Source: Schoenoplectus triqueter | Lineage: Eukaryota; Streptophyta; Magnoliopsida; Poales; Cyperaceae | Reading direction: 5' to 3' | DNA: 53,997 nt | Assembly: GCA_964058805.1 (NCBI GenBank) | Contig: CAXKVV010000468.1 | Span: forward strand, 1 to 53,997 | Shown here: positions 2,354 through 30,927 of the stretch, piece by piece | Layout: the number at the start of each line of letters is the position of its first letter | Position numbering within the stretch: the stretch's first letter is position 1 | Program-made: the position numbers and the translations under genes | Notes under the pieces: generated by a model | What the model was told of the DNA's origin: nothing | What the model saw: the letters and a program-made list of their open reading frames with translations, nothing else | The model's database searches: none

Positions 2354-2358
2354 CTGGT
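2354..2358. repeat. Target site duplication, left copy
   Basis: The sequence ctggt directly precedes the TG of the left LTR and recurs at 30923-30927 directly after the CA of the right LTR. Five bases is the usual duplication made by Ty3/gypsy integrases. Confidence 0.95.
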
Positions 2359-2674
2359 TGTGCGACCCTTTTTCGCGCGCCGCCGCACCGCCGCCGGGCG
2401 ATGGGTTCTGCGGAAGAAGGACACGGAGATCCCTCCCGAGCGTGCATCTGCGTGGGTGTCGGCCGATTCTGCCGATTAGAGATATTTGGATGCATATTCA
2501 GGGGGTTTTTAGTGATTGTGAGTTCTTGTAGATTCCGGTGGGCGCAAGCCCCCACCGTTAATTACCCTGGGCTACGAACCTCGAGGCACCTCTGGATCTT
2601 TGAAAGAGAGAAGCAAATAGTATAGTTAAGAGATGGGCAAGTGGTCGTCTAAGTTTATAAAATGGATCTACGGA

Positions 2675-3271
2675 AGATGAACCTACCAACAGACCGGTTC
2701 AATCTAGGGAAGACAAAACCTACAAACAGATCGGTTTTATCCTGTGGTGGACGAACCTACAAACAGACCGGTTCAGTCCATGCCTCCTCGAGATGTAACC
2801 TTACCAACAGACCAGGTTAATCTCTTCATAGGGGGCTTGAGGTGAGTCTATATACAGACCGACTCGACCTCCGTTGATCTAGAAGATAAACCTACAAACA
2901 GACCGGTTCAATCTTAACTAGTCAACAACCAATCACACAAAATACAACTCGAAGCGCTGAGCCGGTTGATCTTGAGGTTGGTGAATCAGGAGAAGGGTGG
3001 ATATGGCCCACGTATTTCTTCTCACCGATCTTCTAGATCATGAATTCGTAGCACTAAGCCGATTCATAAACCTAGGAAACACAATTGCACACAATGTCAA
3101 ACATGAAGCGCTGGGCCAGTTCAACATTGAGGCATGTGTAAGTGAAGGAACCTACCTACAGACCGGTTCACATTCACTGTTTTGTGGATGAATCTACCAA
3201 CAGACCGATTCAATCTCACATTCTCGGGGAATGAGTCGGGAGACAAACTCGTCGACGGACGAATTCAGTCT
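2675..3271 (-). repeat. LTR hairpin array 1 (loop tac..acagacc), 3' LTR copy
   Basis: At least eight short inverted repeats share a loop close to tacaaacagacc while their stems differ. They lie at 2675-2705, 2712-2741, 2748-2780, 2790-2824, 2839-2871, 2883-2915, 3142-3177 and 3187-3215, with a decayed one at 3241-3271. Example arms are gaggtgagtc with gactcgacctc, and tggacgaacc with ggttcagtcca. Both arms change together between units. No protein reading explains this. Confidence 0.85.
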
Positions 3272-3286
3272 TGCCAGCTCAAACGG

Positions 3287-3935
3287 TCATGAATTACTTG
3301 TTCATGACACCGAGTCATTAAGATGTCACTTCGCTCGGACATCGTAATGTTCTTCATCTTCAAAGTCGACATATCTCTCCATGCTGATGTCGTAGCTTTG
3401 GTCAATCTTCAACGAACGTCAAGATGTTCTTGTCTCGACTAATCATTCTACATGTTGCATTACTTGTGCAAAATTACTATGTAGCCCTACACCCCTTGTG
3501 TGAGCGTATTCAATCATGAGTTACTTGCTCATAGCAACGAGTCATTAAGATGTCACCTCTCTAGGACATCGTAATGTTCTTCTTCTTCAGAGTCGACGTA
3601 TATCTTCATGTTAGTATCGTAGCTCTGGTTATTCTTCATCAAACATCAAGATGTTCCTGTCTCGATGTATCTTCTCAGGTTGCTATCGAAGCCTTAATCT
3701 TCTCACGTCAAGTTGTTCTTGTCTCAACGTATTTTATTATTATTCATCAAATGTCAAGATGTTCTTGTCTTGACATATCTTTTCATATTGCTATTAAGTC
3801 CTTAATCATCCTACGTCAAAATGTTCTTGTTTCAACGTATTTTTATTATTATTCATCAAATGTCAAGATGTTCTTGTCTTGACATATCTTCTCATATTGC
3901 TATTAAATCCTACGTCAAGATGTTCTTGTCTTGAC
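3287..3935 (-). repeat. LTR hairpin array 2 (loops ttacttg and atgttcttgt), 3' LTR copy
   Basis: Two hairpin types are interspersed. Three hairpins have loop ttacttg with different stems: tcatgaa/ttcatga at 3287-3307, ttgca/tgcaa at 3455-3471, and atgag/ctcat at 3516-3532. Seven have a ten-base loop atgttcttgt or a one-base variant, at 3418-3439, 3644-3667, 3705-3730, 3752-3775, 3813-3838, 3861-3884 and 3914-3935. Two larger ones, at 3317-3348 and 3544-3575, share an 11-bp stem but differ in the loop. Confidence 0.85.
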
Positions 3936-4019
3936 TAATCGTTCTAAATGTTGTGTGAATATTCTCATGTGACTCTACACTCCTTGTGTGAGCATTTTTT
4001 ATTCATTTCAAAAATATGT

Positions 4020-4057
4020 AAAGCCTATATAATACTTTCTATTATTATGCATTTATC

Positions 4058-4088
<31 letters not shown>

Positions 4089-5110
4089 TTGTTTATTCTA
4101 TTTATCTATGTAGAAAATTATTTACAAAAATAATAAGAAAAGGGGGTAGCTATTAACTTAGAACTTTATTTATATTTTTGGGATTTTTATAATAGCTAAA
4201 ATAGTAGAATTTTATTTTTATTATTTCTAAACTCTATTTATTCTATAGAAAATCACTTACAAAAATAAAATGGCTATGATTTTTTTATTTGTATTTTAAA
4301 ATGTTTATAATAGCTAAGGTAATAGGATTTTATTATTATATTCTATTATATTGAAATACTATTCATTATGTAAGAATCATTTACAAAATTAAAAGGTGAT
4401 TAGCTATACTATTTTACTATTATTATTTTTATTATTTATTTCTTTTATTTTTAATATCTATAATAGCTAAAAGAAATCATTACTAATATTCTATCTTACT
4501 TATTATACTATTCATTATATCTATTTTTTTATTATTTCTATTTATTATCTATAGAAAGGTATAAGATTTTTTATTACTAATTGAAAATAGTCATAAGAGA
4601 TGAAATTCATTATGTTTTTTTTTATTACAACTATTATTTTTATTACATTTTATTCATCAAAAGTATATATTTTTATATTTGTAAAGAAATACAAAAGAAA
4701 TACAATTCATATTACAAAACTATATTATTATTCTTTATTGTAAAAGAAAATGTATTTATTACCATAGTAGTATATTTTGTATATTTTGTGCTATTTATTT
4801 TTATTATTCTTTTTACAGAAAATATCAATATAATATCTATTATTATTATATATTTTTTTATTTATCAAAGAATATAGCTAATCTCATTATTTATTATAGC
4901 ATATTATTATCATCATTATTATTTCATGGAAAATCACTTGAAAAATCACTAAAATATATCTAGTTATTATTTATGATTTTTATTTGTATTTTTGGGATTT
5001 TTATAGTATTTAAAATGACAAGTCAAATCTAGGTCAACTATATCAATATATGTAATGCATTTTGCTTTTAAAATGTTTTATTATGATTATATCTCTAAAA
5101 CTGGAATATT
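4020..5110. repeat. Very AT-rich tract inside LTR
   Basis: About 1.1 kb is built almost only of A and T, with tta microsatellite runs and a recurring block containing tataatagctaa plus aaaatcactta. The blocks recur at roughly 120-200 bp and look like a decayed tandem repeat. Many tttatt words give aataaa on the minus strand, so it could hold the poly(A) site of the genomic RNA. The equal copy in the 5' LTR is at about 25593-26683. Confidence 0.6.
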
Positions 5111-7366
5111 ATCATATAGGAAAATAGTATGAAAAATAAGAAAATTTTAGAAACAAATTTGAGTTAATTTGGGGTTTAGGAACATTTTCAAATCATTTAT
5201 TTACTCTATATTATTACTATTCTGTTATTATTTAATTAATGGGCCTAATCTGGGCCGCCAGATCTGTATCAAGATCAGCGCCTATCTTTTATTTAACTAT
5301 ATTCTTATTTGGGCCGCTGGATTCGCTTCAAGATTGATTCATATTAGATGAACGGCCCAGATCTATATCTATATTTCCATTTAATGTGACACTTTACTTC
5401 ACTCGTCCGATCTCTTCAAGATTTACACACGTGCGCCAATATCCGTGCTGCCGCGATTCTTTGACTCCCCAGTCAATGGCGTCTTCAAGATTCACGCTAA
5501 CGGTGTCGCCGGCGACTGAGGCCACCCTACTCCGATCAGGCAACTACCCGAGCATCGCCTTATTGCAGGAAATCATTCTATAATCTCTGATTAGTGATCC
5601 ATACGGTGAATCCCTCTGTACATTAGTGCCAGCTAGAACAAATTGGTACCATTCGGTACCGAATCACAAATCTCACAAATTCCATGAAATTAATCGTTAT
5701 TTCTGACAATTGAGCACCTAATCCATATCGTATATGCATACCAATGTGTTATAACATGATCAAGATCATTCAAATTGATTCTTATTCTTTTTATTCAGAA
5801 TGCATAGTAATCTCTCTCGGTACCGGTTACAACACATACCAAATTCCTGTAATTCATATGTGTATACTATCATTAATGCACTCTATAAGCTTTATAATGT
5901 CTGCCTTAGTTGAAACAAACTCAATTATACCTTCAATTACCATTGATTCTTGGACTGATACCCGATTTCCATAACAGAAAGCGACGACAGTGTTCAAACT
6001 TCAAATTAGTCGAGTTCTCAAGATTATATCTGAGATCAATCGACTTTAAATGACTCCATAGACTCTAATGCATATGATATTAACAGGGATCAAGATAATT
6101 CTCACTCAAAAATCAAGAATTGATCAATGAATCTTGACTGTTACCGAGTTCTCAAGTTGAACTGAGATCAATCGATTTAACAGCCTTATTCATCAATCTC
6201 TAAGTAAAATTCATCAACAGAAATGAAAGATTTATATTATATAAACTTGCAATGCATGAAATGAAGAAGAAAATCATGAAAAAAAGGTTGAAATTCAAAG
6301 AAATTTAGAGACAGCACAGTAAAATGCTGATATCCAGTGGCAATTACATCTTTAAAGCTCCAATCTTCAAGAATTAAATCTACTAATCCTTAATTGGCAG
6401 ATAATAGAGTATATAGCTTACCTCTAAACAAGCAATTGAAGCAAAGGAATTGAGTTCTCAAGTTAAAACTGAGATCAATCAATTCTATCAAATCTCCCTC
6501 GGTTCTTGCCTCTTCTTTGCTTTCTCTCTCTCTCTAGACTTTATATGTAATCTCTAAAATGCTTCTTCTCTGTCTCTTGACTTCTGTATGCGTGTCTTTT
6601 TTAATTTCCATGGATTAGGGGTTTATATAGCAATAAAAGGGTGTACCAAAGGGGTTAGAGCTATACACCATCCATACACCAGTAATTGAGTTAGATTGGC
6701 TCATGAACATGGTTCTCCAATTCTGTTATCCATTCTGTTGCGATGTGGGTCCCATTCAAGGAATCCAAAGCTTACTCCTTTCACTGTTGACTAAGTTTGA
6801 CTCACATCTCATATGCTGCTAGAACCTTCTAGAACATCTAAACATACTATATATACTCACTCTAATGCATCTAGAGCATTCATTCATCCTCTGCCATTAT
6901 TATCTTCTTCCAAAGCTCAAAGCTTTATTACCCGATTCTATCTCTTGGCCAAAAACATAGCTCCTCCATTCAATTGCCAAACTTCACCATTTCAATATCA
7001 TCGTGTGAGTGCATAGAGGCCATAAATGCTGCCAATTCGAGTTTATAGCGCCAGGTTCTAACTTTCCTCAATTCACCCGATCTTGTCGTCTCATCTCAAT
7101 TGTTCTTATTCAATGTTTAATTGTTGCTTTTTCTTTCATTTACAGCATCGCCTAGGTGATTAAGGTCTGCTTGTATCATCAATTTCAAGTTTAGACCTAC
7201 GGATCAAAGTTCTTCATTAATCACCCGAGGTGATCATCCTCTCTCACTGCTCTATTCAGTTGTTCTTTTTCAATTTCAAGCATTAACCCTTTCTCTTCTA
7301 TGCATGGATTACCTCTGGCTATAAGGAATTCAAAGCTTTAAGCTCTAGAGAACTCAATTGGAGTTA

Positions 7367-7505
7367 ATGGCGCCATCGGCCTCGGCAAGAAGAAGGAGAA
7401 AGAGAGGGAGGGGTGAAGGAGAAGAAAGAGAAAGAACTGCGCTCGGCGCAGAGAGCCTGCCACACATTGGGACCCACCGTCAGAGGTGCAGCGCAAATGA
7501 TCCAG
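7367..7505 (+). CDS. Candidate LTR-encoded first exon of antisense PMD gene
   Basis: An ATG at 7367 opens 46 codons that end in a phase-1 donor, cag|gtacac, at 7505/7506. The peptide begins MAPSASARRRRKRGRG and is strongly basic, like a nuclear localisation signal. The main PMD exon lacks an ATG for its first ~135 codons, so an upstream exon is needed. A plausible acceptor, attgtag at 9458-9464, is also phase 1, giving a 1,959-bp intron. All five downstream introns are phase 1 too, which supports the pairing. It remains a prediction: the start context is weak at -3, and another upstream exon could be used. The identical copy in the 5' LTR (28940-29078) has no PMD exon after it. Confidence 0.45.
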
Positions 7506-7787
7506 GTACACGCTTGCTTCACTCTCTTCGATTTAAATCTTCTGTTTAATACTACATAGGCATGGTGTATGGATGAATAAATGAACTGCCTGCTTAAATC
7601 TCTGACATATGGGCCCTAGATGTAAGTGTTATGACTCTAGGTCCACAGATCCAATCACCAATCGATTAGTCTATTGCTTAGTGTTAATGAAGCTGATCTG
7701 GCACACTCTGATAGGGCCACTTGCTTAATCATCCCATTAATTATCTGCCATAGTATTCAATCCATGCTGAGGTGGCTCTGTAATGTA

Positions 7788-8140
7788 GTGCCATGTGGCT
7801 TAGTCCCCTGTGATGTGGCACCAATGGTTAGCTGCCATATGGCACTGAGGTGTTGAGGTGTGATGCCATGGTGTTGCCATGTGGCACTGGAAGGGTGAAG
7901 TGGCCCTATGGTGTAGAGCCATGTGGCACTGGGGTAGTGAGATGGCCTCCTCTGGCTGTGCCATGTGGCACAGGGTTGGGTTAAGTGGACCTCTGGTGTG
8001 GTGCCATGTGGCACTAGGGTGATGAGGTGGCCCACTGGCTGTCTGCCACGTGGCACTAAGGTGGGGCCCACCTGTCAGTGACTCATACCTGGGTGGGGCC
8101 CACTTGCTGACATGGCCCAATGAGAGGCTGCCACGTGGCA
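7788..8140. repeat. Palindrome array tgccaNNtggca in LTR
   Basis: Eight short palindromes occur in 350 bp, spaced about 40-85 bp: 7788, 7833, 7875, 7918, 7958, 8001, 8044 and 8129. Most read gtgccatgtggcac or a close form. The last two are tgccacgtggca and contain a perfect CACGTG G-box core, a bZIP/bHLH binding site in plants. The sequence between them is a decayed tandem repeat rich in aggtggc. The other LTR has the same array at 29361-29713. Confidence 0.75.
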
Positions 8141-8574
8141 CACCCTCTCTCTTCGATTATTTTATACTTCCTGTGTTTCTTGTACCCAGTTTGTACCCAG
8201 AGCTGCTGTTATCCCCAACTTGCACCCAGGATTGCTCTGATCAAATCTCAGCCTTTGATTAATCTATTTAATCTGCCTTTATTTTCTCTGAATTTATTCT
8301 GATAGCTCCACTCATCCAAAAATTATGAAATTTTCACCAAAAATCCCTAAATTCATGATGATCATCCCTGTAATTTTTAATTCCATTTTTACCCCTCCTT
8401 CTCTGAATTAAAAATTCTTTTATTCATAAAACCCTATTATTCTCTCTGAATTAATCCCTAATCTCAGTTATAGCTCTGTGTCTCTGCCAATTATCTCCCT
8501 CTTGCAGAAACCACCCTAACTAAATACCAATTAGACTTATATTGATATTCATTAGGGCTTGATTTGATCAAATG

Positions 8575-8785
8575 CTGACTACTTATCAGCAATTAATACA
8601 AATCTAGACTTGATCAGATGGTTGCTCCCAGCTTTGGCACCTGATCAGTCTTGTGAAATTGACTTTCAATCCCTTAACATGAGGGTGACTTGGTCAAAGA
8701 ACTGACTACTTATCAGTAATTGACACAAATCAAAGCATGGTTAGGTGGTTGCTCGCAGCTTTGGCACCAGGTCAGCCTTGAAAGC
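8575..8785. repeat. Imperfect direct repeat in LTR, period 127
   Basis: Two units of about 83 bp start with ctgactacttatcag at 8575 and 8702 and share ggttgctc and cagctttggcacc further on. They are copied in the 5' LTR at 30148-30358. No function is evident. Confidence 0.75.
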
Positions 8786-9360
8786 AAAATCACATTTGGA
8801 ATTTCTCATGACTAGTTGCATCAAAATGCTAGCTTGGCATTGACATCATTTCATGTAGTATAGGGATTATACTGCTTCAGCTCCTTTCTAGGGTTAGCTT
8901 CAAAGGCAGATTTCTAGGGTTCAATTCTGACCCTCTTCAATAGGTCACTGAGGTGTGGGGTCCACCTGTCAGTGAAAATGGTCACATGGGTGACTCATCA
9001 GATAGGCTATGCTGTTAGATTCATCTGCAAGGGACTGCCATGTGGGTCCCACTTGTCAGAAAAGGTATAATCACATGGTGACACCCAAGAGGTCTCCTCT
9101 CTCCCTCGATCTTCTTGGGTGTCACACATGCTGAGTAGATAGAGAATAGCGGGGTATTTATACTCTTCACTTTGCGCTCAGCATTCCATTGTGGGACTAA
9201 TGGATTTGTTCCGGGGTTATGCAGCGACTTTTCCTGATCAGTGGGCCACCTTTCCACTGCTCTCTCTCTTCTCCCCCTTTCTTATGATTTATCATCAATT
9301 TATTTCATTTATTCATCTATTCATCCTTGAAATTTTTCAAGGGTAAACAAAGAGCCACCC

Positions 9361-9400
9361 ACCAAGACGAGCCTTGAACGCTCGAAAGGCTTGTCTTGGT
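9361..9400. other. 15-bp stem hairpin beside the 3' LTR, where a PPT is expected
   Basis: The arms accaagacgagcctt (9361-9375) and aaggcttgtcttggt (9386-9400) pair over 15 bp with one mismatch on the minus strand, which is a G-U wobble on the plus strand. The loop is 10 nt. It starts 12 bp from the inner LTR edge. The usual all-purine tract is not evident between it and the LTR; the minus strand there reads ggtgggtggctctt. Confidence 0.75.
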
Positions 9401-9464
9401 GTATTATTCCTTATTATTCATCGCTTCATTTCTCATGACGTCTTATTCTCTTCGGGTATTGTAG

Positions 9465-11252
9465 TTTCATCTCATGACGCCATTCCGCGTCGCCCCTTGA
9501 GTCATTATCATTCTTTCTACGAGGATCCTAGCGATTGGACTCCTCTCATCTCAGCCATCCGAGCGACTCCTGTCTACCCGCGAGGCGGCGGTTTATTCTT
9601 CAGGGATGATCAGCCTCATGACATCATACCCCTTCAGCCCTTAGGCGTTGCTTCTACAGCTCCTTTGACACATCTCCTGGGCAAGGAGATTATCGACGGG
9701 GAGGCTCACAGGTGGACTACTGCTCCCTTCATCACTCCCTTAGAGTGCCATGGATATCAGCTAGAGTGGACCCGGTATGTGCTCATGCGGGAGGGGACTC
9801 TGCTCAGGCGAGCCGGGATATATGACTCGGTTTTCTTGTCGATGTTTCATTATCATATCGACACACCCTGGCTACGGGCCTTTTGTGAGCGGTGGAACTA
9901 TTCCACCAACACTCTATTCATCGACGATCGGGAGTTGACTCCGACCCTCCTGGAGATACAGCAGTTGACCGGGCTGCCGATTTTCGGTCATTTCTATGAC
10001 GAGTTCATGGTCTCACCCGCTGACTCGGGAGACCTCACTCGATTCCCGCCTTCTTTGCATATGATTTATGAGATTTATCATCATTTACGGAGGGGGCATC
10101 CCGGAGTTCCGTTCAGATGTTGGATCGCCTATTTCACCGATCGGGTCCACACTCGCCCTACGGGTCTGGCTTCCACCAGAGATCCATTTGGTACAGGTCG
10201 GCTCGAGATTCATTATGACGGCCCTATCCCATCTCAGGATACCCTGTGTTCTCATGACGTGGATCGGGAGACTTATTTGACCGCCTTCATCTCTTGGTGG
10301 ATTTGCTATTTCTTATTGCCTAGCTCCCCCGCATACACCATTCGACCTTCGGTGTTTATTATGGCGAGCCTGATCGCGCGTGGCGACAGGATTTCTTTGG
10401 CCGTGCCTGTTCTGGCCAACATTTATAGATGCCTCCGCGGTTTGACTTCATCTCGTAGTCCTTCACAGTGCCAGGAGCTGATCCCGTGGCATCTGATTAG
10501 CGGATGGCTCCATTTGCATTGGTCTGGCTCATATGATCCCGGCATGGCGGTCACGCTACGAGATCGCCTATCCATATTGAGTGACTTAGCTGGGGTGCAG
10601 CCAGCTTCATTGACTCCGGAGACTGCCCGGTATAGATTCTTCAGGAGCCGAGACCATCTACGCTTCTCCCGAGACAGATCAATGGCCCGTGGGACATCTA
10701 GGGTTGCTGACAGGATGGTGATTGACAGCAGGGTTCCCTCTTCTGACTCTTCTAGCATTCGAGCCAGGCCTATTGACTTGGAGTACCTGATCAGTATTCG
10801 TCAGGGCTTTCTTCCTCTCAGATTGGGCGATCATATGTTCATCGAGCCCTATTCGCCACATCGATGCGCACATCAGTTTGGCTTGGATCAGGATATTCCA
10901 GCACCTCTTCTCCGCCCTATATCATTGGCAGCCGATTTGGAGGGTATCGGATGGTGCTACACTCACCTCTTCCGACTAGGCACGGGCACTCGCTATCAGA
11001 TGGTATCCACCTCTAGGACTTCCACCTTCACGAGGCGTTATCAGCAGTGGTATTATGAGTCCATCCGCTCCTACCAGTCGTATACTCCTCCGGTGGTCGT
11101 CCGGAGTACATGTCCGCGAGATGGCCAGCCTCTATTAGATGGCACCGTTTCGCGTGATCGCAGCCCTTTCCCGGCTATTGCTGCAGAGCCTGTCGACTTC
11201 CAGGGTTTAGACAGCCGGTTTTCTCATGCTCCTGTTAGGACCATTCTCACAG
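9465..11252 (+). CDS. PMD (MAIN-like) protein, main exon
   Basis: This long exon carries a plant mobile domain, seen from about 9800 (LRRAGIYDSVFLSM) to about 10610. Typical PMD blocks are the tryptophan-rich start FCERWN, the LTPTLLEIQQLTGLP segment and a late hydrophobic block, SLAVPVLANIYRCLRGL. Cellular PMD proteins (MAIN, MAIL1) are nuclear and act in gene silencing and genome stability. PMD genes are also known as cargo of plant transposons. The open frame extends back to 9347 but has no ATG before about codon 135, so I place the exon start at the acceptor 9464/9465, which is uncertain. The end is the donor cacag|gtatgc at 11252/11253, phase 1. It lies opposite to gag-pol. Confidence 0.85.
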
Positions 11253-11328
11253 GTATGCTTCATCACCCTTTAGGTTATTTCCTTTTAATAAGCCTCATCT
11301 CATTTCGACCAATTCTCTTTTGATTCAG

Positions 11329-11502
11329 AGCTGGCTTATGAGTATGATCACGCGGAGCCCGGGTTCTCGGTCCCTCGTCCACGAGTAGTTGGCATTCATT
11401 CTCAGCCACATGTCGAGCCACCGGCTCCAGCTGCTATGGGGAGGGATCGAGACGGCGCCTCTCAGCCGTCTTCTCCACCTTCTCTTCCTTCTCCCACTCC
11501 GG
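11329..11502 (+). CDS. PMD gene exon B
   Basis: The acceptor is gattcag at 11322-11328 and the donor is ccgg|gtgatt at 11502/11503. The intron before it is 76 bp. Joined in phase 1, its 58 codons stay open. They encode a proline- and serine-rich linker ending in a PSSPPSLPSPTP-type run, likely disordered. Confidence 0.8.
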
Positions 11503-11579
11503 GTGATTTTCTTTACTAACTCGCCTATCTTTACTTGGGCGCATTTCATTTACATCTCTGACTAGGGTTTATTTTTCAG

Positions 11580-11687
11580 CCCGTGGGATATCTCCTGTAG
11601 AGGTAGCTCAGGATGACATCGTAGCAGATCCATCAGCGTCTGCAAGTGCTGCCATTTCAGGGTTTTGCACCGACCTTGTCGTCGCAG
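11580..11687 (+). CDS. PMD gene exon C
   Basis: The acceptor atttttcag ends at 11579 and the donor gcag|gttcgt is at 11687/11688. The preceding intron is 77 bp. The 36 codons are open in phase 1 and encode an alanine/serine/aspartate-rich linker. Confidence 0.75.
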
Positions 11688-11760
11688 GTTCGTGTGCTTC
11701 ATTTAATACCTAGTTGCCAGCATGCACTAGTATTTTCATTCTTACATGTATATTTTACAG

Positions 11761-12177
11761 ACCCTGAGGCTGATGACATGGCATCTCCTCATCGCTCGGA
11801 GTCTTTCTTTTACGACGGTCCTGCCTCACCGTCGATCTTATTGGTGCCTACCGGGGACGGTGACTCATTTGATGTGGTTCTGGGGCCAGTGCTCACTCTT
11901 GCACTACCAGAGGAGGCTTCTTTAGAGCAGGGGAGTCCATTGGCTGTCGAGCCCGCAGGCGACGAGCCATTACTGATCGAGGGAGGGCCATCTCATACTT
12001 CTTCATCTCCCGACGGGCAGCCTCTCATGGTCACAGATAGCAGAGTCTCGACTGAGCGGGTTGCAGTCGATTATGACTCAGAGTTGGATGAGAGTTGGCT
12101 GGCGGAGCAGCTATTCCACAGCCCAGAGATAGAGGTTCCGATTAGCGAGGGTCTCGCCGAGCCTCATGCTTCTTCCG
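11761..12177 (+). CDS. PMD gene exon D
   Basis: The acceptor tattttacag ends at 11760 and the donor ttccg|gtacct follows 12177. The preceding intron is 73 bp. The 139 codons encode an acidic, low-complexity region with many D, E, S and P (for example VDYDSELDESWLAEQLF), probably disordered. No domain is recognised. Confidence 0.8.
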
Positions 12178-12252
12178 GTACCTTATATTTCCTTTATCAT
12201 TTACCCGTATTTTACTTTTCATGTACTTATGCTTCTTCATTTTATTTTGTAG

Positions 12253-12342
12253 CCGGGTCTGGTACACCTATGGGTCCTCCTGAGGCGACCGATATCCCTA
12301 TCCCTGACTCAGTCCCGCCTGTCTCAGGCGACGAGGCGATAG
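12253..12342 (+). CDS. PMD gene exon E
   Basis: The acceptor ttttgtag ends at 12252 and the donor gatag|gttaga follows 12342. The preceding intron is 75 bp and T-rich. The 30 codons are proline- and aspartate-rich. An unspliced transcript would stop at the TAG that overlaps the donor. Confidence 0.75.
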   Translation, partial: PGLVHLWVLLRRPISLSLTQSRLSQATRR

Positions 12343-12414
12343 GTTAGATCTTCTCTTCCTTCTATTTCTTCTTTGGTTATAACAATTTGTCTAACCCATT
12401 TATTTTACTTGCAG

Positions 12415-13025
12415 ATGTTTCATCGAGGGATGTGCAGCTCGCCTTGGTCGCGCTGGCGGATGCACTCCGGGATACCTTCTTCGGAGGCTATCCGCTCGAT
12501 TTCGAGATCCTGGACTCTCTGCCCAGCGGCTTCTCTTTCGATTGGTATAGGCTGATGCGGGATACCATCGCGCCGGCTCTACTCATTGCACCTCGTCTCG
12601 AGAGCACTTTTATTTCTAGGAGGTGTGAGGAGCTGCTCAGGGCTTACCAGGATGCGAGCTCTCTCGTATACCAGCATGAGTTGGAGATTCATGAGCTACG
12701 CAGGCATTTGGAGGCCGCTCGACTCCACTATCTTCAGCGGCTCTCTTCTTGTGCCACTCTCCGCTCCATGGGAGTCAGTGGTGGGCCCGCTCGACTGCTC
12801 GTGCAGGAGCTAGAGGACCACAGATTATCAGTGGAGGGCTTCTCTCGACATCTAGCGGGACGTCTCCCGGAGTTGCAGATTCATTCGAGCGCCCGGGATA
12901 GTGCTTTCTCTCAGTTCCTGGACTTCGAGGCAGCTTCGGAGGAGGATAGGCACTCCCTCCATACTTATTTAGAGACTATTAGCACAGTGCTTTTAGAGTT
13001 GGAGTCCCGCTTTTTGGGCCCATAG
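12415..13025 (+). CDS. PMD gene last exon, coiled coil
   Basis: The acceptor ttacttgcag ends at 12414 after a 72-bp intron. About 203 codons run to a TAG at 13023-13025. The product is leucine- and arginine-rich with heptad-like spacing (ELEIHELRRHLEAARLHYLQ and onward), so it probably forms coiled-coil helices for dimerisation. With the LTR exon the whole spliced frame would be 1,108 residues: basic N-terminus, PMD, disordered acidic linker, coiled coil. Confidence 0.8.
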
Positions 13026-13260
13026 ACTGCACTTTCATTTTTTCTTTTCTCCCTTTTCTTTGCTATACTTGATATAGGATGCATTGACATTTATCATTTT
13101 GATCTCTTGTTGTGGATGATGCTTGCTTTTATTATTATCCCTTCATCGCTTCCTCTGCAGCGTGAGGAAATATTTCATTCATTTCATGCTATGCACCTCC
13201 AATCTTATTTGCAAAAGCGCCCTATTACAACTGCTTCATTCTTTCGCAGCGTCTAAACAT

Positions 13261-13266
13261 AATAAA
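13261..13266 (+). terminator. Possible poly(A) signal of the PMD gene
   Basis: An aataaa hexamer lies 236 bp past the stop codon on the same strand, in T-rich sequence. Plant poly(A) signals are loose, so this is only a candidate. Confidence 0.3.
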
Positions 13267-13616
13267 GAAAAATCTTACAACATCCTATTACATTCATTCT
13301 ATGTATGTTCATCTTTATTTATTGCAATACAAACTCAAGTAACCGTGGTATTTTACGGATACCGAACCTGTCTGTATTGACCACTAGGCCGGGTACAGAA
13401 TAAACCCGTTTATCCCTTTATTACTGATGGATAAACTTACCAGTACCAATTGGATTATGGATGCAATTGATAACACCATTTTGTGGATGCTCCTTGTATA
13501 TTTAATTGACATTTATTTGTGGAAGCTCACCCACTCTCCCCTCATTTGTGCACCGTTGCGTGCTAAAGTGGAAACTCACGTTCTCTCATCTCCACTCAAT
13601 TTGTTTTGTGGGGGTA

Positions 13617-14090
13617 CTACCCTCAAACATCCATCACGCATCCCTGCGAGACAGGCTTTCATCGGGTAGGTTCGCTCTCCATGACCCGAGTCACTTCTTT
13701 AAGCGAATTACTTTATTTGACACTGAATGTCGGGCAAAAGCGTAAACCCTTAGTCTGACCCCTCCATGATCTATTTTGGGATTAGAAACAGACCACTTCC
13801 TTGGGCGTGTGGTACTTTTGCGGACGAATGTACCCAACCCGTTTTTTATATTTTAGCTACCCTCAAACATCCATCACGCATCCCTGCGAGACAGGCTTTC
13901 ATCGGGTAGGTCCGCTCTCCATGACCTGAGTCACTTCTTTAAGCGAGCCGCTTTGTTTAACATGAAATGTCGGGTACAAGCGTAAACCCTTAATCTGACC
14001 CCTCCATGATATGTCGTGGGATTATGACACACCATTTCTTCGGGCGTGTGGTGCTTTTACGGATGAATGCACCCAACCTGGCTTTGTATA
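13617..14090. repeat. Two-copy 240-bp tandem repeat between PMD gene and gag-pol
   Basis: Two units begin with ctaccctcaaacatcc at 13617 and 13857, exactly 240 bp apart, and stay alignable almost to 14090. They share gcatccctgcgagacagg and cgtaaacccttaNtctgacc. They sit between the convergent ends of gag-pol and the antisense gene. The rest of 13026-14767 shows no gene. Confidence 0.9.
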
Positions 14091-14767
14091 ACACTCATGG
14101 TGTCGGGGACAAAGGTGGCAACCCCTTATTGAAAAGGTTTTATTATTTATTATTTTTTTATTATCATTCATTTTTTTTTTATGAGTAGGAAAATAGGTTT
14201 TTATTGTTTTACATATATATCCTTTTATTTTATTAGAAGAGGGCAAATTTTTGTTATTAGTGATACATGTTACTAATAGTACGAGAGTTATTTATTTATA
14301 TGCCCTCGGAAGCGACTATTTACTAGCCACCAATTTGCTCGACCTATCCCTTGGCTTGCGCCGCGGGCGACCAATATGAGCAACTTTCGTCATTGGGCAA
14401 CAGATAGTTTGAGGGACAAACTGCAAACCCTGCCCATTTTTGTGTTTATTCTGTATCAAATGGACAAACCCAGTGGTATTTGTATTGTGAGCCCAAACAC
14501 CAAAGCTCTCGCCTTACATTCTCGCGTGGTTTTGGCGTTGTATTCCCTTATTCTATATTTTTTTATTTTATAGGGCTAAATGTGTTTGTGTGGTTTTGGA
14601 TTTTTGGATGCATTCTATTTACAGATGCAAAAGTAGGGTTTTTGGGATTTTTATGCAAAAGTGGAGGTTAGACATGGGTTTGTGTTTCGTGCACGTGTGT
14701 GTAAGCGAACACTTATTCCCTCCTTATTTATTTAAAATAGATACTACTCGATCGGCCCCGCTCCGGG

Positions 14768-17700
14768 CTATGTGTAGTACTTCTTCAGATATCGCCCATT
14801 AATCGGTGGCATGGGCCTCTCACCTTCATGGTCTATGAGTTGGTATGCGCCGCCTTCGTATACCTTCTCAATTACATATGGCCCTTCCCAATTCGGGGAG
14901 AATTTTGGGCCGATGTGCCGGCCAATGATCGGCCTTTTAAGGACAAGAACAAGCTCCCCTTGTTGAAATGCCCTAACTCGCGCCATTTTATCATATGCCC
15001 TTGCCATTTTTGCCTGATATATTTCAAGGTTCTGCTGGGCTATCAGTCTCTTCTCGTCCATGGCATCCAACTCGTCTAATCTGAGTTGTTGGCATTCGTC
15101 CATGGTCATATCATTTTGCATAGCCACCCGCAATGACGGTAGTTCCACCTCAAGAGGGAGGACGGCTTCAACCCCAAAAGCCAACGAATACGGGGTAGCT
15201 TGCGTAGGCGTTCGGTACGTGGTCCGATAAGCCCATAATGCCTCCTGTAGACGATTATCCCAGTCTCGTTGGTTGCCGTCCACGGTCTTCTTCATAATAT
15301 TTATTAGTGTTTTATTAAAGGCTTCGGCCAGGCCGTTGGCTCTCGGGTTGTAAATGGACGAGAATCTCCAATCAATGTTAAATTGCTCCGCCAGGGCATA
15401 GACTTTGGAGCTCTTAAAGGCCGTTCCATTATCGGATATTATCCGTTGTGGTGTACCAAATCGGTAAAGGATGTGCGTCTTGAAGAATTTAACCACATCG
15501 GATGCTTTGACTTCTTTGAGCGGGATGGCTTCGGCCCATTTTGTAAAGTAATCTGTCGCCGCCAGGATGAACCGGTGACCTCTCGACGTCGGAGGGTCTA
15601 TGGGCCCCACTATATCTGTGCCCCACATATTAAATGGCCAGGATGCTACTGTGGGGTGCAATGGGCTTGGCGCTTGATGTATAAAAGGGCCATGTATCTG
15701 GCACATGCGGCATTTCCTTGCGTGCTCTTCACAATCAGCCACCATCGTGGGCCAATAATACCCCATTCGCTTGATTTTTAACTTCATTTTTGGCCCAGAC
15801 TGATGTGCTCCGCATAGCCCGGAATGAACTTCTTTCATAACCTGCTCGGCTTCATGCCCTGATACACATCTTAACCATAACTGATCATAAGACCTACGAT
15901 ATAGCGTATTGCCCACATACGCATACCGTAGTACCCGTTTTCTTAGTTGATCAGCGATTCTTTTATCTTTGGGGAGGGTGCCATGCCGGAAATATTTGAT
16001 GAACGGCTGTCTCCAATCATCGTCTTCAGTTATCATTGTTTCTTGGCATTCTATCCTTCCTAGCCCGGCATTTTCATTACTCGCATCATCTGTTATTTGA
16101 CACAATGATAATGGTCTCCTATTGCGGACGATGATGTGGATTTCCGGCTCTGTTGGTTCACCCAGCTCTTTGGCGAGTTTGGCCAACGCATCTGCTTCAC
16201 CATTCACGGCCCTCGTGACCTTCTCGATGGACACGTACGGGATTTTCTTCATTAATTCCATGGCCTTTTGGTGATATTGTATTAGTTCCGGCTTCAAGAC
16301 CTTGTATTCGCCAATTATTTGATTTATTATCAGCTGTGAATCCCCAAAGATGCGTACAGCCTTGATTCCCAGCTCCAGTGATAACTCTAGTCCGGCGATG
16401 AGTGCCTCATACTCTGCTTCATTATTTGTACATGGTTCGGTTAAAGCCAGAGAATGTCGTATTATCCCGCCTTCCGGGGTTACGAAGACTAGTCCTGCGC
16501 CAGCTCGCACAGTTGGGACTCCCGGGCCCGCGATCGGCTTGATTGAAGAAGCACCATCAAAGTACAACTCCCATATAGGGTCTCCTTCTTCGACATGTAG
16601 AGTTTCCTCATCGGGAAAGTCACATTTTAATGGGGAGTCATCTTGAATCGGGTGTGCAGCCAGGAAATCTGCTAGCGCCTGCCCCTTTATCGCCTTTTGC
16701 GGTGTATAGGTGATGTCGAACTCGGTAAGAATGATAGCCCACTTGGCCAGCCTCCCCGTCAACATTGACCGAGTCATCAGATATTTGAGAGGGTCCACCT
16801 TGGATATTAATATGATTTTGTGGGCTAACATGTAATGCCTCAATTTCTTCACCGCGAAGATTAGGGCTAGGCAATGCTTCTCGATTGGTGAATACCCGTG
16901 TTCTGCCCCTACCATCATGCGGCTTAGATAATATAGCGCATTTTGATTACCATCCTGGTTTTCTTGTGCTAATAGGGCTCCCAAAGATCCGTCCAGGGCG
17001 GTTGTATATAGGATAAGCTCCTTTCCGGGTATGGGCGCCGCCAATACTGGAGGGTTGAGTAGATATGCCTTGATTTCTTCAAAGGCTCGCTGACACTCAC
17101 CGTCCCACTTAAACGGGATATTCTTCTTAGTTAGCCGGGTGAAGGGTTGGATTTTACCCGATAGGTTGGCTATGAACCGCCTGATGTACGCCAATTGCCC
17201 TTGCAAAGATCGCAATTGTTTTAAATTCTTTGGCGGGGATAATTCAGTTATTGCTTTGATCTTGCCCGGGTCTATCTCAATGCCCCTGTGGCGTACCACA
17301 AATCCCAGAAATTTGCCAGATGATACCATGAATGCGCATTTCAACGGGTTTAATTTGAGCGCATGTTCCCTTAGGCGGTTGAAAACGACCTCGAGATATT
17401 GGAGGTGTTCTTCATATGACATGGCTTTGATGACTAGGTCGTCCACATAGCATTCTACTATCTTGTGGATCAGATCGTCGAATATCTTCGTCATTGCCCG
17501 TTGGTAGGTGGCTCCCGCATTTTTGAGCCCAAACGGCATGACTTTGTAGCAATATATGCCAATTGGCGTGCGGAATGCCGTATGCCTCTCATCTTCTGGC
17601 GCCATTTTAATTTGATTATAGCCCGCATAACCGTCCATGAAGGAGAAGACTTCATAGGAGGATGTATGGTCAATTATGATTTCAGTTACTGGGAGCGGGA

Positions 17701-20700
17701 AATCATCTTTAGGGCACGCCTTGTTTAAGTCCCGAAAGTCCACGCAAATGCGGATTTGCCCATTTTTCTTTTTAACCGGGACAATGCTAGCCACCCATTC
17801 TGGCGTCTCTTCTTCCCGTATGAAGCCGGCGTCGATGAGTTTCTTTGTCTCCTCCACGACCTTTTCTTCGAGTTCTATTCTCATTCGCCTCGGCGCTTGT
17901 TTAATCGGCTTAAAGGTTGGATCGATTTTTAAGTAATGGACCGCCACGTTGGGATCTAATCCAGGCATTTCCTTATAACTCCAAGCGAAGCAGTCCATGT
18001 AGCTTCTAAGGAATGTCTTCAACCTGTCAGCTACCTCTTCCGGCAATGACGCGCTTATGAAAGTTGGTCGTGGGTCTTCTTTTGTCCCCAAATTAATTTC
18101 AGCTAACTCATCGACCGTGTTAGGCTCCTTTTCTAGCTGTTTCAAAGCATTTTTCAGGACCGGGGTATTGTCCTCTTCTGTTTCATTATCCAGCATCTCA
18201 ACAGAAGTCATGCAACAGCCTAACCCCCGGGTATATTTTATTTTGCCATCCAGGCCCAGGACTTTATTCTGGCCGCCATTCCAGAGTTCATCGAAGCGCT
18301 TGGCCTCGGCCTTGGATATGTCTCTCAGACATTTCGCCCTTTTTGCCAGTTTATACAGCTCCTTTCCAAAGGGATGAAATGCAGCGTCACCGCTCGTTGC
18401 ATTCTCCGATTCTTGTTCTATCACCCACTTCTTCCAAGTGTTGTGATCAGGGTTCTTCAGAGACTGGGTTGAATCGCTCTGATAGAAAATTATAGCCTTG
18501 TGGATGATAGTTTTCCCTTTGATGCGCTCTACCTTTGCCGGCACAACAAAGGTCTTCAGGGTTTGGATGTGGTTCACTTCCCTTGGTATGAGGTCTTTAA
18601 AATGCCTTTCAGGAACCACAGTAATTTCTAGCGCTGCCATCTCTTCTTCTATCTCAATATTCATGACTGAGTTGGAGCGGTAGATTTCTTTGATAGGCTT
18701 ACGTCTCGCAACCTTAGGCTTGCTAGGTACGGGAGTGTGCGAGATCGTATAAGCAACCCCTTTGCCTTTGCTATTCGAGTTGTGCGGAGCTGGGTCTTGT
18801 TGAAAGCTCTTCGGGAGTTGGATCGTCCCGTTTCTATGCCCTTCTTCTATAAGGTCTTTGAATACCCAGCATTCTTCAATAGTATGACCCAATATGCGAT
18901 GATAAGGGCAGAATTCGCCTTCACTGGCTCTCTCTATGTCTGCGGGTCTTTTGCAAACGGGAAGTGTTAATCCGCTCTTTAAGGCCTGCTCAAATATCCG
19001 AGCTGTTTTATTTTTCAGGAAAGAGTATGGTTTACTCTTCTTGACCTTGAGAGTTTGCATGACGGTCGGTTGCTTAGCTTTCGTTTCTTCCCCCTTTGAT
19101 TCATCTACTATGACAATTACCCGTTTGCTGCTATCGGGTGCTTGTCTTTCGGGGGTCCCGGAACGGGGTTCGCTCGTCATTTCTTTGAGTAGCTCGGAGT
19201 TATAGATCGCGGTTTGCAGGTTTTCAATCATTATCATGATTTCATTGTGTTGCGTCTTGATATCCTGCATCACTTCCCATTGTTCAGACACCTCTCTTCT
19301 ATTATTTTCAACCTGGTGCCTTATTTCGTCAATCGCATTCCAGACACGACCTTCAAAATTTTCCCGCCATGAGCGTTCTTCATTTATAGGCCTCGGCCTA
19401 ACCGGGTTATCCCTTCCGCTACCGGGTCCCGTGTTGATCATATATGACTCCTCGCTTTCATTATCTGTTTCAGGCCCTTTATATGGCTTCTTGAGGATGT
19501 GATAAATGATCTCTTCGTCAGACTCCTCTTCCCAGGGTTGACGATCATGGCCAGATTCCTCTCCCGAGGTGGTATCGCTCGAGTTGTTAGAATCTTCGGA
19601 GTCTTCTCCCGAAGTTGCCTCTATGATCTGAATTTGAGGGGTGTTGGCAGGCTTAAAATTGAAAATGACCTCCTCTTCAGAATCACTTGCATTAATTTCG
19701 CTCGGTTTTATTTGGGCTTTATACGCAGCCACCTGTTCGAAGCGGAAGATTGCTTCTTCACCCGACTTTCTTCCGGGTCTTTGGGCTCGAACACCTCGGG
19801 GTTTAATATTAAATTTGACCTCTTCTTCTTCTCCAGATGAGGTATCAAATTTAGGGCCTTTGTTGAAGGATTTCTGACCTGCTTTTGCCATTGGCCGGCT
19901 CGGCGCCACAGCGGATTTAGGCAGAAAGTACTGGGCGTCATTGAACTTAATCTCATGCACCCCGAATGGTTTGACATCTCCGTCAATTCTCTTTTGCTTA
20001 CCATTCTCGATATATTTCAGGCATTGGTGCAGAGTAGAGGGTATGACCTGATTGCTGTGAAGCCACGGGCGACCCAGCAACGCCCGATAAGAGGTTTCAG
20101 CGTCAATGACATAGAATTTAGTAGGCGCTCTTAGGCTTCCGCATTGCAGGTTCAGAGTTATAGCTCCCAGGGCCTTTTGGGAGTTTTGATTAAAGCCATG
20201 AATAATCACCTTTTCATCAGATAGGTTCTTCACATCTAAGGTGATGGTCTTTAGAGTTTTAAGCGGCATAATATTGATCGAAGACCCTGCGTCGACCAGG
20301 ATGCGGCCAATCTTTTGCCCTCCACAATTTCCTGTGATGTACAGTGGGCGATTGTGGTCGACAGTGCCTATTAGGAGGTCGTCGTCTGTGAAATTTATAC
20401 AGGCGGCCCGTTTGGCGGTGAATAGGGCTTCTTGCATATTTTGCTCTACGAAGTATGACTTGTACTTCTCAGGATCTTGCAAGGCCTGGATTAGTACCTC
20501 CCTTAGGTCTTGTGACATCATCAATGCATCAAATATGCTTAATAGCGCTGGAATCTTACGCAGATGTGCCAACACGTTATATTCTTCGCCCGTCGACCGG
20601 GTCTTTTCTGGGTTCTTGCTTGGATTCTCGACTTCTTTGCCTTTATTCAGGGTCTTATCCTTTCCTTTATCAGAATCCTTGGGAGCCTGTCTCTCGGGTA

Positions 20701-23700
20701 TATAAGTCCCGGATCGGAGCACGGCTTTGCATTCTTCGTTCTTGGTCCCCGAGGTGCTTGCTTCCCCTTCATCATTTGGGAAGAACATCTCCTCTAATGT
20801 TGGCATATCTTCATCGTGAGAAGAATATACCATATTGCACGAAGCACCCCAGATCTCTTCGCTTTCTTCTTTATTTATTTCTTCATTCACATCTTCCTTC
20901 TTTTGACCTAGGGTTAGCTTCTCCCAGTCTTCTTTGGAGATGAAATGTTGAAGGGTGATCACCTCAGGACTGCCCTGCTCGTACTCTTCAATCTTGTTCT
21001 TTTTGGACTTGTTGTTTCTATGCTTCTTTTTCTTCTTAAGAACCTGGTTTTGGCTCTGGTCCACCTTATAATATACCCTGGGTTTTGGTGGGACCACTGG
21101 CGTGATGTCGTCCTTCCATTTCATGCCAGGTTCTTTCTTAAGGGCTTTAAGCATTTTAATTGATTTCTTCGATAAGTGCGTAGTCCATTGTTCTTCCTGA
21201 TCTTCGCATGACTGGCCCGGGACTTTCTCTTCCTCATGAGAGATCGTGTTGGCCTGCTCATGGGCTGATGGGCTTTGCAAGAACCCCTTAGGTAAAGTAA
21301 TTTCACCGTTTTTATACGCTTTCTCGACCCAATCTTTGAAGACCCAGCAATCTTCAATTGAGTGCCCTATTATTCTGTGGTATGGGCAAAAGTTGGGTTC
21401 GTCTGATTTATCGGCATCTTCCGGACGTTTACTGGCCGGCAGGGTTAGGCCGTTCTTCAGTGCCCCTCTGAAGATTTGGGCAACTTTATCTTTTCTGAAG
21501 GAGTACGGTTTGGATTTCTTTTGTTTAAGGGATTCAAAACTCCGTGAACTCCCTCCTGGATTGGGCCTGGGTCCCTTATTATAATTGTTGCCATTTGTGC
21601 TACTGCTGCCGCCTTGGGTGTCTGCGTTGGCAACCATCTTATCTTTCAACGAGGTGAATGCCACTTTGGTTTCAGCTCGGGCCCCTCGTTGCGGCCTATT
21701 ATTCATAAAGCTTGGCACGGTATGCGGTGACATCCTTTCCATGTTGGATACCGATCTGAGCAAGTCTTTAAATGTGTTGACCTTTGTCACACCAAGAAGC
21801 ATGCCCATCCACCCGTCAATGTTCTTCATGATTAGGTTGACGGCCTCATCTTCAGTTAATGTGCGGTCGCATTTAATGCTGAGGTTCCGCCATCTATTGA
21901 TAAAATCTGTCATTGACTCCCCTTTCTTGGGTTTAGTGCTTGCCAGATCAGCTATATTTATTTTGTCAGACACCATGACAAATCGTGCCCTGAACGAGTC
22001 TGCCATCTCGTCCCAGGTCCTGATGCTGTTGTTTTCCAGTGAATAATACCATTGAAAGGCGGTTCCCACCAAGCTCTGAGGGAATTGTCTTAACAACAGT
22101 GCATCATTGCCGCCCGTGTTGCCGCACGAGGCTACAAAGTGGGCCAGGTGTTGTTCGGGGTTTAGGTCTTTATTGCCTTCCCCGGAGAAGGTCCTGAAGC
22201 GGGGGATCACATACCCTTTAGGATATTCTTCCAAGTCATATATGGCAGGGTATGGATGTCCACAGTTTTTAACGGGAGGGATAGCGTATCCACCTCCAGC
22301 TATTTGCATTTGCTGTGCAATCATGGCTTGAATCTCTTTCCGGGATATTCCCGTTGGTTCAGCCTCCACTTCTATGGTTCTGTGTGGATGGGGTTTAGAA
22401 TCGACCGGTTGTTTTCCCTTATGATTGCTTTTGGTACTGTGGACCCCTTCTTGACGGGAGCTACCAGCTTTGAAGTTGGCGTCTTGTGATTCTTGTAAGG
22501 ATTTGACCGCCTTAATCAGTTCTTCATTTTGCTTTAGCATGGTAGCGATTAGCTCCCGTTGCCTAATCAGCTCTTCATCCCGTGCCTCGATGTGGCCTTT
22601 TAATATTTCAATTTCATCGATAGGCATTTCGGGACGTGCTTCAACGTCATCTTCGTTGTCGAAAAGATCAGGGTTTTCATTATGGTCTTCCCCTTCCCTG
22701 CTATTGCCTTCGGGGTTGACTCTCTTTGGGGGTCTCCCTTTTCTACCATTATTCTTATTGGTATTGGTGACGTGAGCTTGATTAGGCGGGGACTGGTCGT
22801 CCTGGACCATATTCACCTCACCATCAGTATCTGGATCGGTATCGTAGCTTATACTGATGGTGTTAACTGAGAAGTGCTCTTCATAGCGAGCGGTTCTTCT
22901 CTTCTTCTTTGCTTGGTCAGGGGCAGTTATTTTTAAACTATTGAGTGGTATTCTCGAGCCTAATCGGCTGAATACACTCTTCTGGCCTAAGCGGTTGAAC
23001 ACGCTCTCGGGCGGAGCGTTGGACCTGCCGGCCTTACTGGGCTGGGTTTGAGACTGGGGTTTCGTTGGCTGGGAACCCTTTGGGACCCACACCTGCTGGG
23101 TGCTAGGTGTTGCCTTTGGTATAGACCTCCTTGGGTTCGGAGTGGAGGCAATGGCTTGCGGCTGAGCCATGCCTTGAGATTGGTTAGGGCGGGAGACGTA
23201 TCGTCTCGACCTAGCGTTCTTAACGCTCTTCCTCTGCTTGAGGGCCCTGTGAGCCTTGTAGATGGCTTCTGCAGGGGTTTGAGACTTATCTTGGCGGCGC
23301 TGAGGCCTTTGAGTTGGGCGAGGTGTGGGCTTAGGCACCTCCCATGCCTGGCGGAGCTGGCCTGTGGCTGAGTTTTTGGCCACTATTCGGAGAGCTGTGA
23401 ATTTATTGGAGACTGGGACAGCTGGCCTAGCCACCAGCTGATTTTGGTATGCGTCCAGGGCCCTCTTCCTGGATGCTTGGGAGTCGCGGGCAGTCTGGGC
23501 TGCTGCCTTTGAGGCCATCTTCTTAGACGGGCGCCTTCTCCTCTTTGGGGAGGCAGTAGGAGAGGCCATAATGTTGTTCGAGATCCCCTTGGGAGTCAGG
23601 GTGATCGATTCTTCCTCCTCGTCCTGAATAGAGATCTGGACGGTCGCGGGAGTGAGGGCGGCCACTGGAGCTGGGCCATAGATAGTAAGTTCTTGCGGGA

Positions 23701-23830: not shown

Positions 23831-23893
23831 TTTAGCACATAGAAGACCACTTGTATCTCTTAAGTATTCTATTTGCCTCTCTCTTTCAGAGAT
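23826..23893 (-). repeat. Leader arm of inverted repeat around the PBS
   Basis: Read on the minus strand, this segment (gaaagagaga...cttaagagat...caagtggtc...taaaatg) matches the plus strand of the LTR at 24168-24239 at roughly 80-85% by eye. It includes the gag ATG. The two arms enclose about 274 nt with the primer-binding site. Confidence 0.85.
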
Positions 23894-23908
23894 AAGAGGA
23901 GAATCTAG

Positions 23909-23926
23909 GTCCCACCGGGCGTGCCA
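23909..23926 (-). promoter_or_regulatory. tRNA primer-binding site
   Basis: Five bases after the LTR end the minus strand reads tggcacgcccggtgggac, beginning with the TGG expected to pair with a tRNA CCA end. It is not the initiator-Met type (tggtatcagagc). I could not assign the tRNA with confidence. Confidence 0.75.
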
Positions 23927-24167
23927 GATCCTGTGCGACCCTTTTTCGCGCGCCGCCGCACCGCCGCCGGGCGATGGGTTCTGCGGAAGAAGGACACGGA
24001 GATCCCTCCCGAGCGTGCATCTGCGTGGGTGTCGGCCGATTCTGCCGATTAGAGATATTTGGATGCATATTCAGGGGGTTTTTAGTGATTGTGAGTTCTT
24101 GTAGATTCCGGTGGGCGCAAGCCCCCACCGTTAATTACCCTGGGCTACGAACCTCGAGGCACCTCTG

Positions 24168-24239
24168 GATCTTTGAAAGAGAGAAGCAAATAGTATAGTT
24201 AAGAGATGGGCAAGTGGTCGTCTAAGTTTATAAAATGGA
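24168..24239 (+). repeat. LTR arm of inverted repeat around the PBS
   Basis: This is the partner of 23826-23893, in inverted orientation and within the last 310 bp of the 5' LTR. The same arm in the 3' LTR (2595-2666) has no partner nearby, so the large fold would form only in RNA or DNA spanning the 5' LTR and gag start. Confidence 0.85.
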
Positions 24240-24247
24240 TCTACGGA

Positions 24248-24844: not shown

Positions 24845-24859
24845 TGCCAGCTCAAACGG

Positions 24860-25508: not shown

Positions 25509-25630
25509 TAATCGTTCTAAATGTTGTGTGAATATTCTCATGTGACTCTACACTCCTTGTGTGAGCATTTTTTATTCATTTCAAAAATATGTAAAGCCTA
25601 TATAATACTTTCTATTATTATGCATTTATC

Positions 25631-25661
<31 letters not shown>

Positions 25662-28194: not shown

Positions 28195-28202
28195 TTTATA
28201 TA
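28195..28202 (-). promoter_or_regulatory. TATA-box candidate for the genomic RNA
   Basis: On the minus strand the site reads tatataaa followed by cccc, a strong plant TATA consensus. A start about 30 bp on, near 28165, would be followed by a purine-rich leader. Its twin in the 3' LTR is at 6622-6629. Confidence 0.4.
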
Positions 28203-30922: not shown

Positions 30923-30927
30923 CTGGT
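30923..30927. repeat. Target site duplication, right copy
   Basis: The second copy of ctggt follows the CA end of the right LTR. It restores the copia reading frame with the left copy. Confidence 0.95.

Follow-up and report, generated by a model that had tools for sequence, protein, structure and literature searches.

The 53,997-nucleotide (nt) stretch of Schoenoplectus triqueter DNA analyzed here (contig CAXKVV010000468.1, hereafter the window) contains a complete long terminal repeat (LTR) retrotransposon that carries, on the strand opposite to gag-pol, what is almost certainly a spliced gene maintained by selection. The gene model comprises seven exons and six introns, all of phase 1, and encodes a protein of 1108 amino acids with a plant mobile domain (PMD). 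An earlier sequence-only reading had proposed an antisense PMD gene in a retrotransposon, with five GT-AG introns of 72–77 nt joining six exons in one open frame. The antisense location and all five introns were confirmed at the predicted positions, the introns all being of phase 1, and the frame stays open to the stop at 13025. The PMD exon matched the Pfam profile PF10536 with an E value of 1e-26 and a score of 94.3 bits, compared with a curated cut-off of 34.9. The beginning of the gene had to be revised: position 9465 is a splice acceptor, and a first exon upstream of it had been missed.

The acceptor preceding position 9465 reads TTGTAG, and the first in-frame ATG downstream of it is at 9785, 107 codons in. 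A frame within the LTR begins with an ATG at 7367 and runs to 7505, where a GT donor follows in phase 1, the phase of the acceptor. This exon was compared with LTR copies elsewhere in the assembly, 37 of which were fetched from the 38 other matches listed (40 of 55 candidates scored; 73–100% identity). The ATG, the exact length of 139 nt and the GT donor are retained in all 37, and stops occur in three. Exon 1 has no indel in any row, compared with 27 indel events in the preceding 80 columns and 30 in the following 45. It encodes a basic tract, RRRRKR, of which Arg-8, Arg-9, Arg-10, and Lys-12 are unchanged in all 38 rows. Over codons 1–20 variation is found mostly at third positions (0.20 versus 0.076 and 0.070), and codons 21–46 show no residue constraint (0.22, 0.25, and 0.23). 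The peptide is probably a nuclear-targeting tag resembling a nuclear localization signal (NLS). The AG of the intron 1 acceptor is present in the window, in 18 of 18 other copies fetched, and in loci L005, L006, and L008.

Table 1. Positions in the window of the antisense gene and of the retrotransposon that carries it
Feature	Position	Strand	Remarks
Exon 1	7367-7505	+	In the LTR; ATG; codons 1–20 MAPSAS.RRRRKRGRGEGE
Intron 1	7506-9464	+	1,959 nt; phase 1; spans the LTR end
Exon 2	9465-11252	+	Entire plant mobile domain
Intron 2	11253-11328	+	Phase 1
Exon 3	11329-11502	+	
Intron 3	11503-11579	+	Phase 1
Exon 4	11580-11687	+	
Intron 4	11688-11760	+	Phase 1
Exon 5	11761-12177	+	Part of a Pro/Ser/Ala-rich linker
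Intron 5	12178-12252	+	Phase 1; AG lost in 1/30 rows
Exon 6	12253-12342	+	
Intron 6	12343-12414	+	Phase 1
Exon 7	12415-13025	+	Tentative long helical hairpin; stop 13023-13025
Array of 8 palindromic GCCAYRTGGC motifs	7790-8139	+	In intron 1, within the LTR; mostly 42–44-nt spacing
Conserved TATATATA	6848-6855		TATTTATA in 2/16 rows (window and 15 LTR copies); nearly palindromic
LTR, 3′ in element orientation	2359-9349	-	6,991 bp; TG start, CA end; holds antisense exon 1 and most of intron 1
LTR, 5′ in element orientation	23932-30922	-	Copy of antisense exon 1 directed outward, into the flank
Target-site duplication CTGGT, left	2354-2358		
Target-site duplication CTGGT, right	30923-30927		
Primer binding site	23908-23926	-	18 nt matching the CCA-tailed 3′ end of tRNA-Arg(TCT), genes from the same assembly
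gag-pol, single open frame	14768-24070	-	First ATG 23830; Gag, RT, RNase H, additional RNase H, integrase

Conservation of the gene was examined in 30 rows, the window and 29 further copies, chosen by score as the top 30 of 40 rows scored among 166 candidates, a choice that favors intact copies. All five short introns are present in every row. Their donors are GT in all 30 rows, and their acceptors AG in all 30 at four introns and in 29 at the one ending at 12252, so that the splice sites are conserved across related copies. Lack of such conservation would have refuted the sequence-only reading, which this outcome favors. The exons (~2.95 kb) show no indel events relative to the window in the 28 complete copies, L023 being truncated where its contig ends; over the same 28 copies, the five short introns show 40 indel events and the 1.5-kb 3′ flank 308, locus ends excluded. 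The ratio of nonsynonymous to synonymous substitution (dN/dS), for which a value near 1 would have spoken against the gene, has a mean of 0.142. It is 0.087 in the PMD exon, 0.086 in the last exon and 0.20 in exon 5, and exons 3, 4, and 6 are looser (0.40–0.50). As a control, the same exons read in shifted frames give 1.10 and 1.75, and the reverse-strand readings give 1.08, 2.21, and 0.25; shared codon positions would account for the last value, and that reading contains about 53 stops. Internal stops occur in 4 of the 29 copies. Divergence is 4–8% among the copies and reaches 27% among LTR copies. Judged by its codons, the product is under purifying selection. The synonymous divergence of the exons (0.18) exceeds the diversity of the introns (0.03–0.10) and of the 3′ flank (0.02–0.05) in the 28 copies over window positions 9700–14500, which is unexplained.

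The exons are antisense to the genomic RNA of the element, an arrangement in which the antisense RNA itself might matter, by forming double-stranded RNA with the sense RNA or by promoter interference, with the protein secondary. Such a role has been proposed (PMC7264820, excerpt), but the codon-level selection, the absence of exon indels and the dN/dS of 0.14 favor the protein and make an RNA role very improbable. A function of the protein in the replication cycle, for example in nuclear import or targeting of the pre-integration complex via the NLS-like exon, is unlikely, though less so. The four invariant residues of the basic tract would suit it, as would the last exon, which is under purifying selection and is tentatively modeled as a long helical hairpin (single-sequence prediction; mean predicted local distance difference test score of 64.6 in the best of five models and 34–41 in the others), and the idea has been discussed for antisense open reading frames (ORFs) (PMC7264820, excerpt). 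However, such a helper would come from the antisense transcript, apart from Gag-Pol, and no link to Gag or integrase was seen, no specific test having been made.

The retrotransposon occupies positions 2359–30922 (28,564 bp), with a 5-bp target-site duplication at both ends. Since the flanks, once joined, continue in a frame that we take from its motif to be Copia-like and that adjoins a Copia polyprotein, the element is inserted within a Copia element. Its two LTRs are identical apart from one base, at position 3005. At a plant substitution rate of 1.3e-8 per site per year this single difference corresponds to an insertion age of some thousands of years, and the element is very young. The gag-pol frame has matches to RVT_1 (residues 2099–2258), RT_RNaseH (2348–2451), RVT_3 (2521–2633), and rve (2812–2909), which places the additional RNase H between RNase H and integrase, the order of the Tat clade and that reported for angiosperm Ogre and Retand elements (PMC6317226, excerpt). 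The primer binding site matches tRNA-Arg, as in the Ogre lineage (PMC9289625), and the PMD extra ORF (PF10536) is a further Ogre trait. The gag-pro and pol ORFs with a spliced region between them that mark Ogre were not found in the element; gag-pol is instead one frame of 3,100 residues, and an orchid element that is sister to Ogre likewise has a single frame (PMC9289625). By these sequence characters the element is an Ogre-like Tat element of the Ty3-gypsy group; because gag-pol is a single frame, the label Ogre is not used.

The orientation of the gene would explain how its introns survive. The sense genomic RNA would carry the gene as its complement, in which the splice sites are not read, and the introns, inert reverse complements there, would be renewed at each round of reverse transcription. 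The antisense mRNA, if it were reverse transcribed and integrated, would leave spliced junctions in the genome. The assembly comprises 82 Mb and may be incomplete; it gave no match to phytochrome PHY, and none to matK in a search that detected no control either. Two of the six junctions, searched with up to three mismatches allowed, had no match in it; in the same search 29 nt of the unspliced start of exon 3 gave 113 matches, and the reversed pattern gave none. The earlier explanation of intron survival by antisense orientation is thus supported. With a single mismatch in 6,991 bp of LTR, the introns might instead have been retained by the chance of youth, whatever their orientation. The divergence of the gene copies (4–8%) and of the LTR copies (up to 27%), together with an intron pattern shared at 39% PMD identity (see below), indicates that many rounds of reverse transcription have passed, which renders this extremely improbable. 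Antisense introns are used in laboratory markers to track retrotransposition, and the gene is a natural counterpart of such markers.

The architecture extends to related families. In L114, L115, and L119, the three examined of six fetched, the PMD exon is 82–84% identical and the later exons form separate blocks. In the L120 family, whose PMD exon is only 39% identical, the donor that follows the PMD has the same position, and the six introns downstream of the PMD exon are all of phase 1. The exon-chaining script used for it allowed any phase and relied on splice matrices derived from the introns of the window itself; applied to the window, it recovered the five introns together with two false ones in exon 7 (phases 2 and 0). 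Two introns that the script placed in the L120 PMD exon (phases 1 and 2) were rejected since tblastn shows continuous homology there, and only the six downstream ones are counted. The LTR exon is not clearly kept in L120, where the obvious acceptor would give an in-frame stop. Ten JGI/ENA proteins (P0002–P0011; 37–66% identity) have, at the protein level, a glycine that would fit a G|GT site at the point homologous to the intron 2 donor or close to it, and their open frames end soon after this point.

In L007 a PMD exon of only 63% protein identity lies between an LTR stretch and a downstream stretch that are 97 and 91% identical in DNA, and L078 is similar (PMD, 64%; downstream, 89%). On this sequence evidence the two are recombinants in which the PMD exon was exchanged between families, probably by template switching. 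A base-by-base comparison placed one L007 breakpoint within the LTR, close to its end, and the other in exon 3. As neither falls in an intron, exon swapping at intron borders was rejected for this locus. Whole-exon gain or loss, which the uniform phase 1 had been thought to allow, was not seen among the 30 copies. Nor was the description of the gene as cargo supported, in the sense of a host gene carried only recently, as PMD extra ORFs are a standing Ogre feature, present in 57% of Ogre elements (PMC6317226, excerpt), and the intron-rich form is also found at 39% PMD identity. The multi-exon structure is indeed like that of a host gene, but a recent capture of a MAIN-like gene in reverse, introns included, is hardly credible when the gene is present across the family, the PMD is so frequent in Ogre elements and the other PMD loci of the genome with high Pfam scores are remote in sequence. 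High-ranking PMD loci of this different type (L001–L004, L076, and L077) were excluded from the comparison; two of them, L001 and L003, which are treated as host type without a tree to place them, show profile-level matches to the element PMDs. L001 adjoins a reverse-oriented LTR of the same element family and may not be a plain host gene. Gypsy-only PMD-A clades are known (PMC5418596, excerpt). The PMD described here is likewise associated with a gypsy element and is a candidate member of PMD-A.

The predicted PMD fold has one clear match among solved structures, VANC21. The sequence identity between the PMD exon and VANC21 is 6%, and at E values up to 10 the PMD exon matches PF10536 only, with no match to PF09331 (DUF1985), so by sequence the protein is not a VANC. 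DUF1985 is reached from the PMD only via bridge proteins, and the sequence relationships suggest that PMD and DUF1985 are one superfamily. In L125, L126, P0027–P0030, and P0032 the two Pfam models match the same residues, mostly below the cut-off. Searching the PDB by sequence returned 51 matches at E values up to 1, all at profile positions 628–805, the C-terminal parts of homologues, and many of them to coiled coils. No report of a relation between the PMD and DUF1985 or VANC was found in the open-access literature searched.

These observations suggest a mechanism. The LTR would drive the antisense gene, whose start codon and basic peptide lie in the LTR and, by the sequence, splice over its end to join the PMD. 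The protein would then enter the nucleus, where the VANC21-like PMD would bind DNA of its own element family and keep silencing off it. A candidate site is the palindromic array in intron 1, with eight GCCAYRTGGC motifs where chance would give 0.06 over the entire window; of 15 further LTR copies, 14 contain one to eight motifs and the remaining one lacks them. That the antisense protein is a nuclear DNA-binding regulator is somewhat favored on this evidence, whereas anti-silencing in particular, the leading mechanism, is possible but falls short of probable. The chances that this is a working accessory gene of an Ogre-like Tat element with a nuclear DNA-binding anti-silencing role are about evenly balanced. 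The suggestion that the protein counters host control, made in the sequence-only reading and for element PMDs before (PMC8616336, excerpt), now has a structural lead in the predicted VANC21 fold.

It is rather unlikely that the protein acts in the opposite direction, as a self-limiting regulator comparable to HBZ and APH proteins or as a competitor or mimic of MAIN/MAIL, which would repress sense transcription and restrain copy number. The anatomy of the gene does resemble that of HBZ, and APH-3 and APH-4 suppress transcription driven by the 5′ LTR (PMC10186651, excerpt). Host PMD proteins function in silencing, MAIN and MAIL1 doing so in Arabidopsis (PMC5418596, excerpt). The fold match is, however, to an anti-silencing protein, and neither the near identity of the LTRs nor the occurrence of the exon 3 start at 113 or more places speaks for tight repression.

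For the anti-silencing role, we tentatively propose a wider reading, which we consider doubtful as a whole: the Ogre-like PMD would be a sequence-specific anti-silencing factor of VANC type, PMD and DUF1985 would derive from one element-borne DNA-binding fold, and the LTR would serve as a start-exon trap. The host silencing factors MAIN and MAIL would then be domesticated relatives of an anti-silencing protein, and a PMD-VANC relation, if true, would give plant silencing and anti-silencing factors a single origin. As the LTR holds the start exon and its nuclear tag, such a mobile trap, able to tag flanking sequence, would exist in each solo LTR as well as in the 5′ LTR, which faces outward. 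The second copy of exon 1, at 28940–29078 (+) in the 5′ LTR, faces out of the element, and its GT donor could splice to the flank.

Two candidate features of the antisense 5′ region were considered. The conserved TATATATA, a possible antisense TATA box, is nearly palindromic, and the TATTTATA of two copies fits the sense strand equally, so that it may point either way. A leader intron at ~7054–7146 was rejected, as it loses its GT in L104 and its AG in L105 and L112. Elsewhere in the LTRs, a partly palindromic repeat, GTCAAGATGTTCTTGTCTYGAC, has seven imperfect copies per LTR (3418–3935 and 24991–25508), and a second array, AACCTAC.AACAGA.CGGTT, lies at 2680–2945. The gag-pol frame contains two 80-residue modules with a CPYHR..GH...C pattern (18794–19033 and 21272–21511, minus strand; 49/80 identical), one after the Gag match and the other after a protease-like DAGSS motif (20293). 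Between the convergent PMD gene and pol, a 168-nt stretch is duplicated with 89% identity (13617–13784 and 13857–14024).

To our knowledge, antisense accessory genes of plant retrotransposons have had no known function. The present locus supplies strong evidence of selection on such a protein and a testable activity, suggested by the VANC21 match, as well as an exact gene model with an LTR start exon that single-ORF surveys would miss; the survey of Ogre PMDs took single ORFs of at least 250 codons (PMC6317226, excerpt). Antisense PMD ORFs in Ogre elements were already known; no report of introns in such antisense genes, or of an LTR-coded start exon, was found in the open-access literature searched, the two most relevant older studies lying outside its coverage. 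A search for spliced antisense transcripts has been called for in a review (PMC7264820, excerpt).

The gene is like the antisense PMD ORFs of Ogre/Tat elements in its domain, its location between pol and the 3′ LTR, the Tat domain order and the tRNA-Arg primer binding site, and is unlike those surveyed in its six introns, its start in the LTR and the gag-pol of one frame. Antisense ORFs are known in Retand and Grande (PMC11963269; PMC7264820; excerpts), and gene23 of maize Grande, for which a nuclear protein and its own antisense promoter are reported (PMC7264820, excerpt), and the TRP28 ORFs of Retand are likewise antisense accessory genes in a long 3′ region; their domain differs from the PMD found here, being TRP28 in Retand. 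The host MAIN and MAIL proteins belong to the same Pfam family as the element PMD but are remote in sequence. HBZ of HTLV-1 has its first coding exon in the LTR and a single intron, and is a bZIP protein, unlike the PMD protein. The two are alike as antisense genes, HBZ having a 3′ LTR promoter, a spliced form and a nuclear product (PMC10186651, excerpt). VANC21 is a DNA-binding anti-silencing protein of VANDAL21 of Arabidopsis, which is a DNA transposon, whereas the element described here is a retrotransposon; anti-silencing has been shown for VANC, and for the Ogre-like PMD it is a proposal prompted by the predicted fold.

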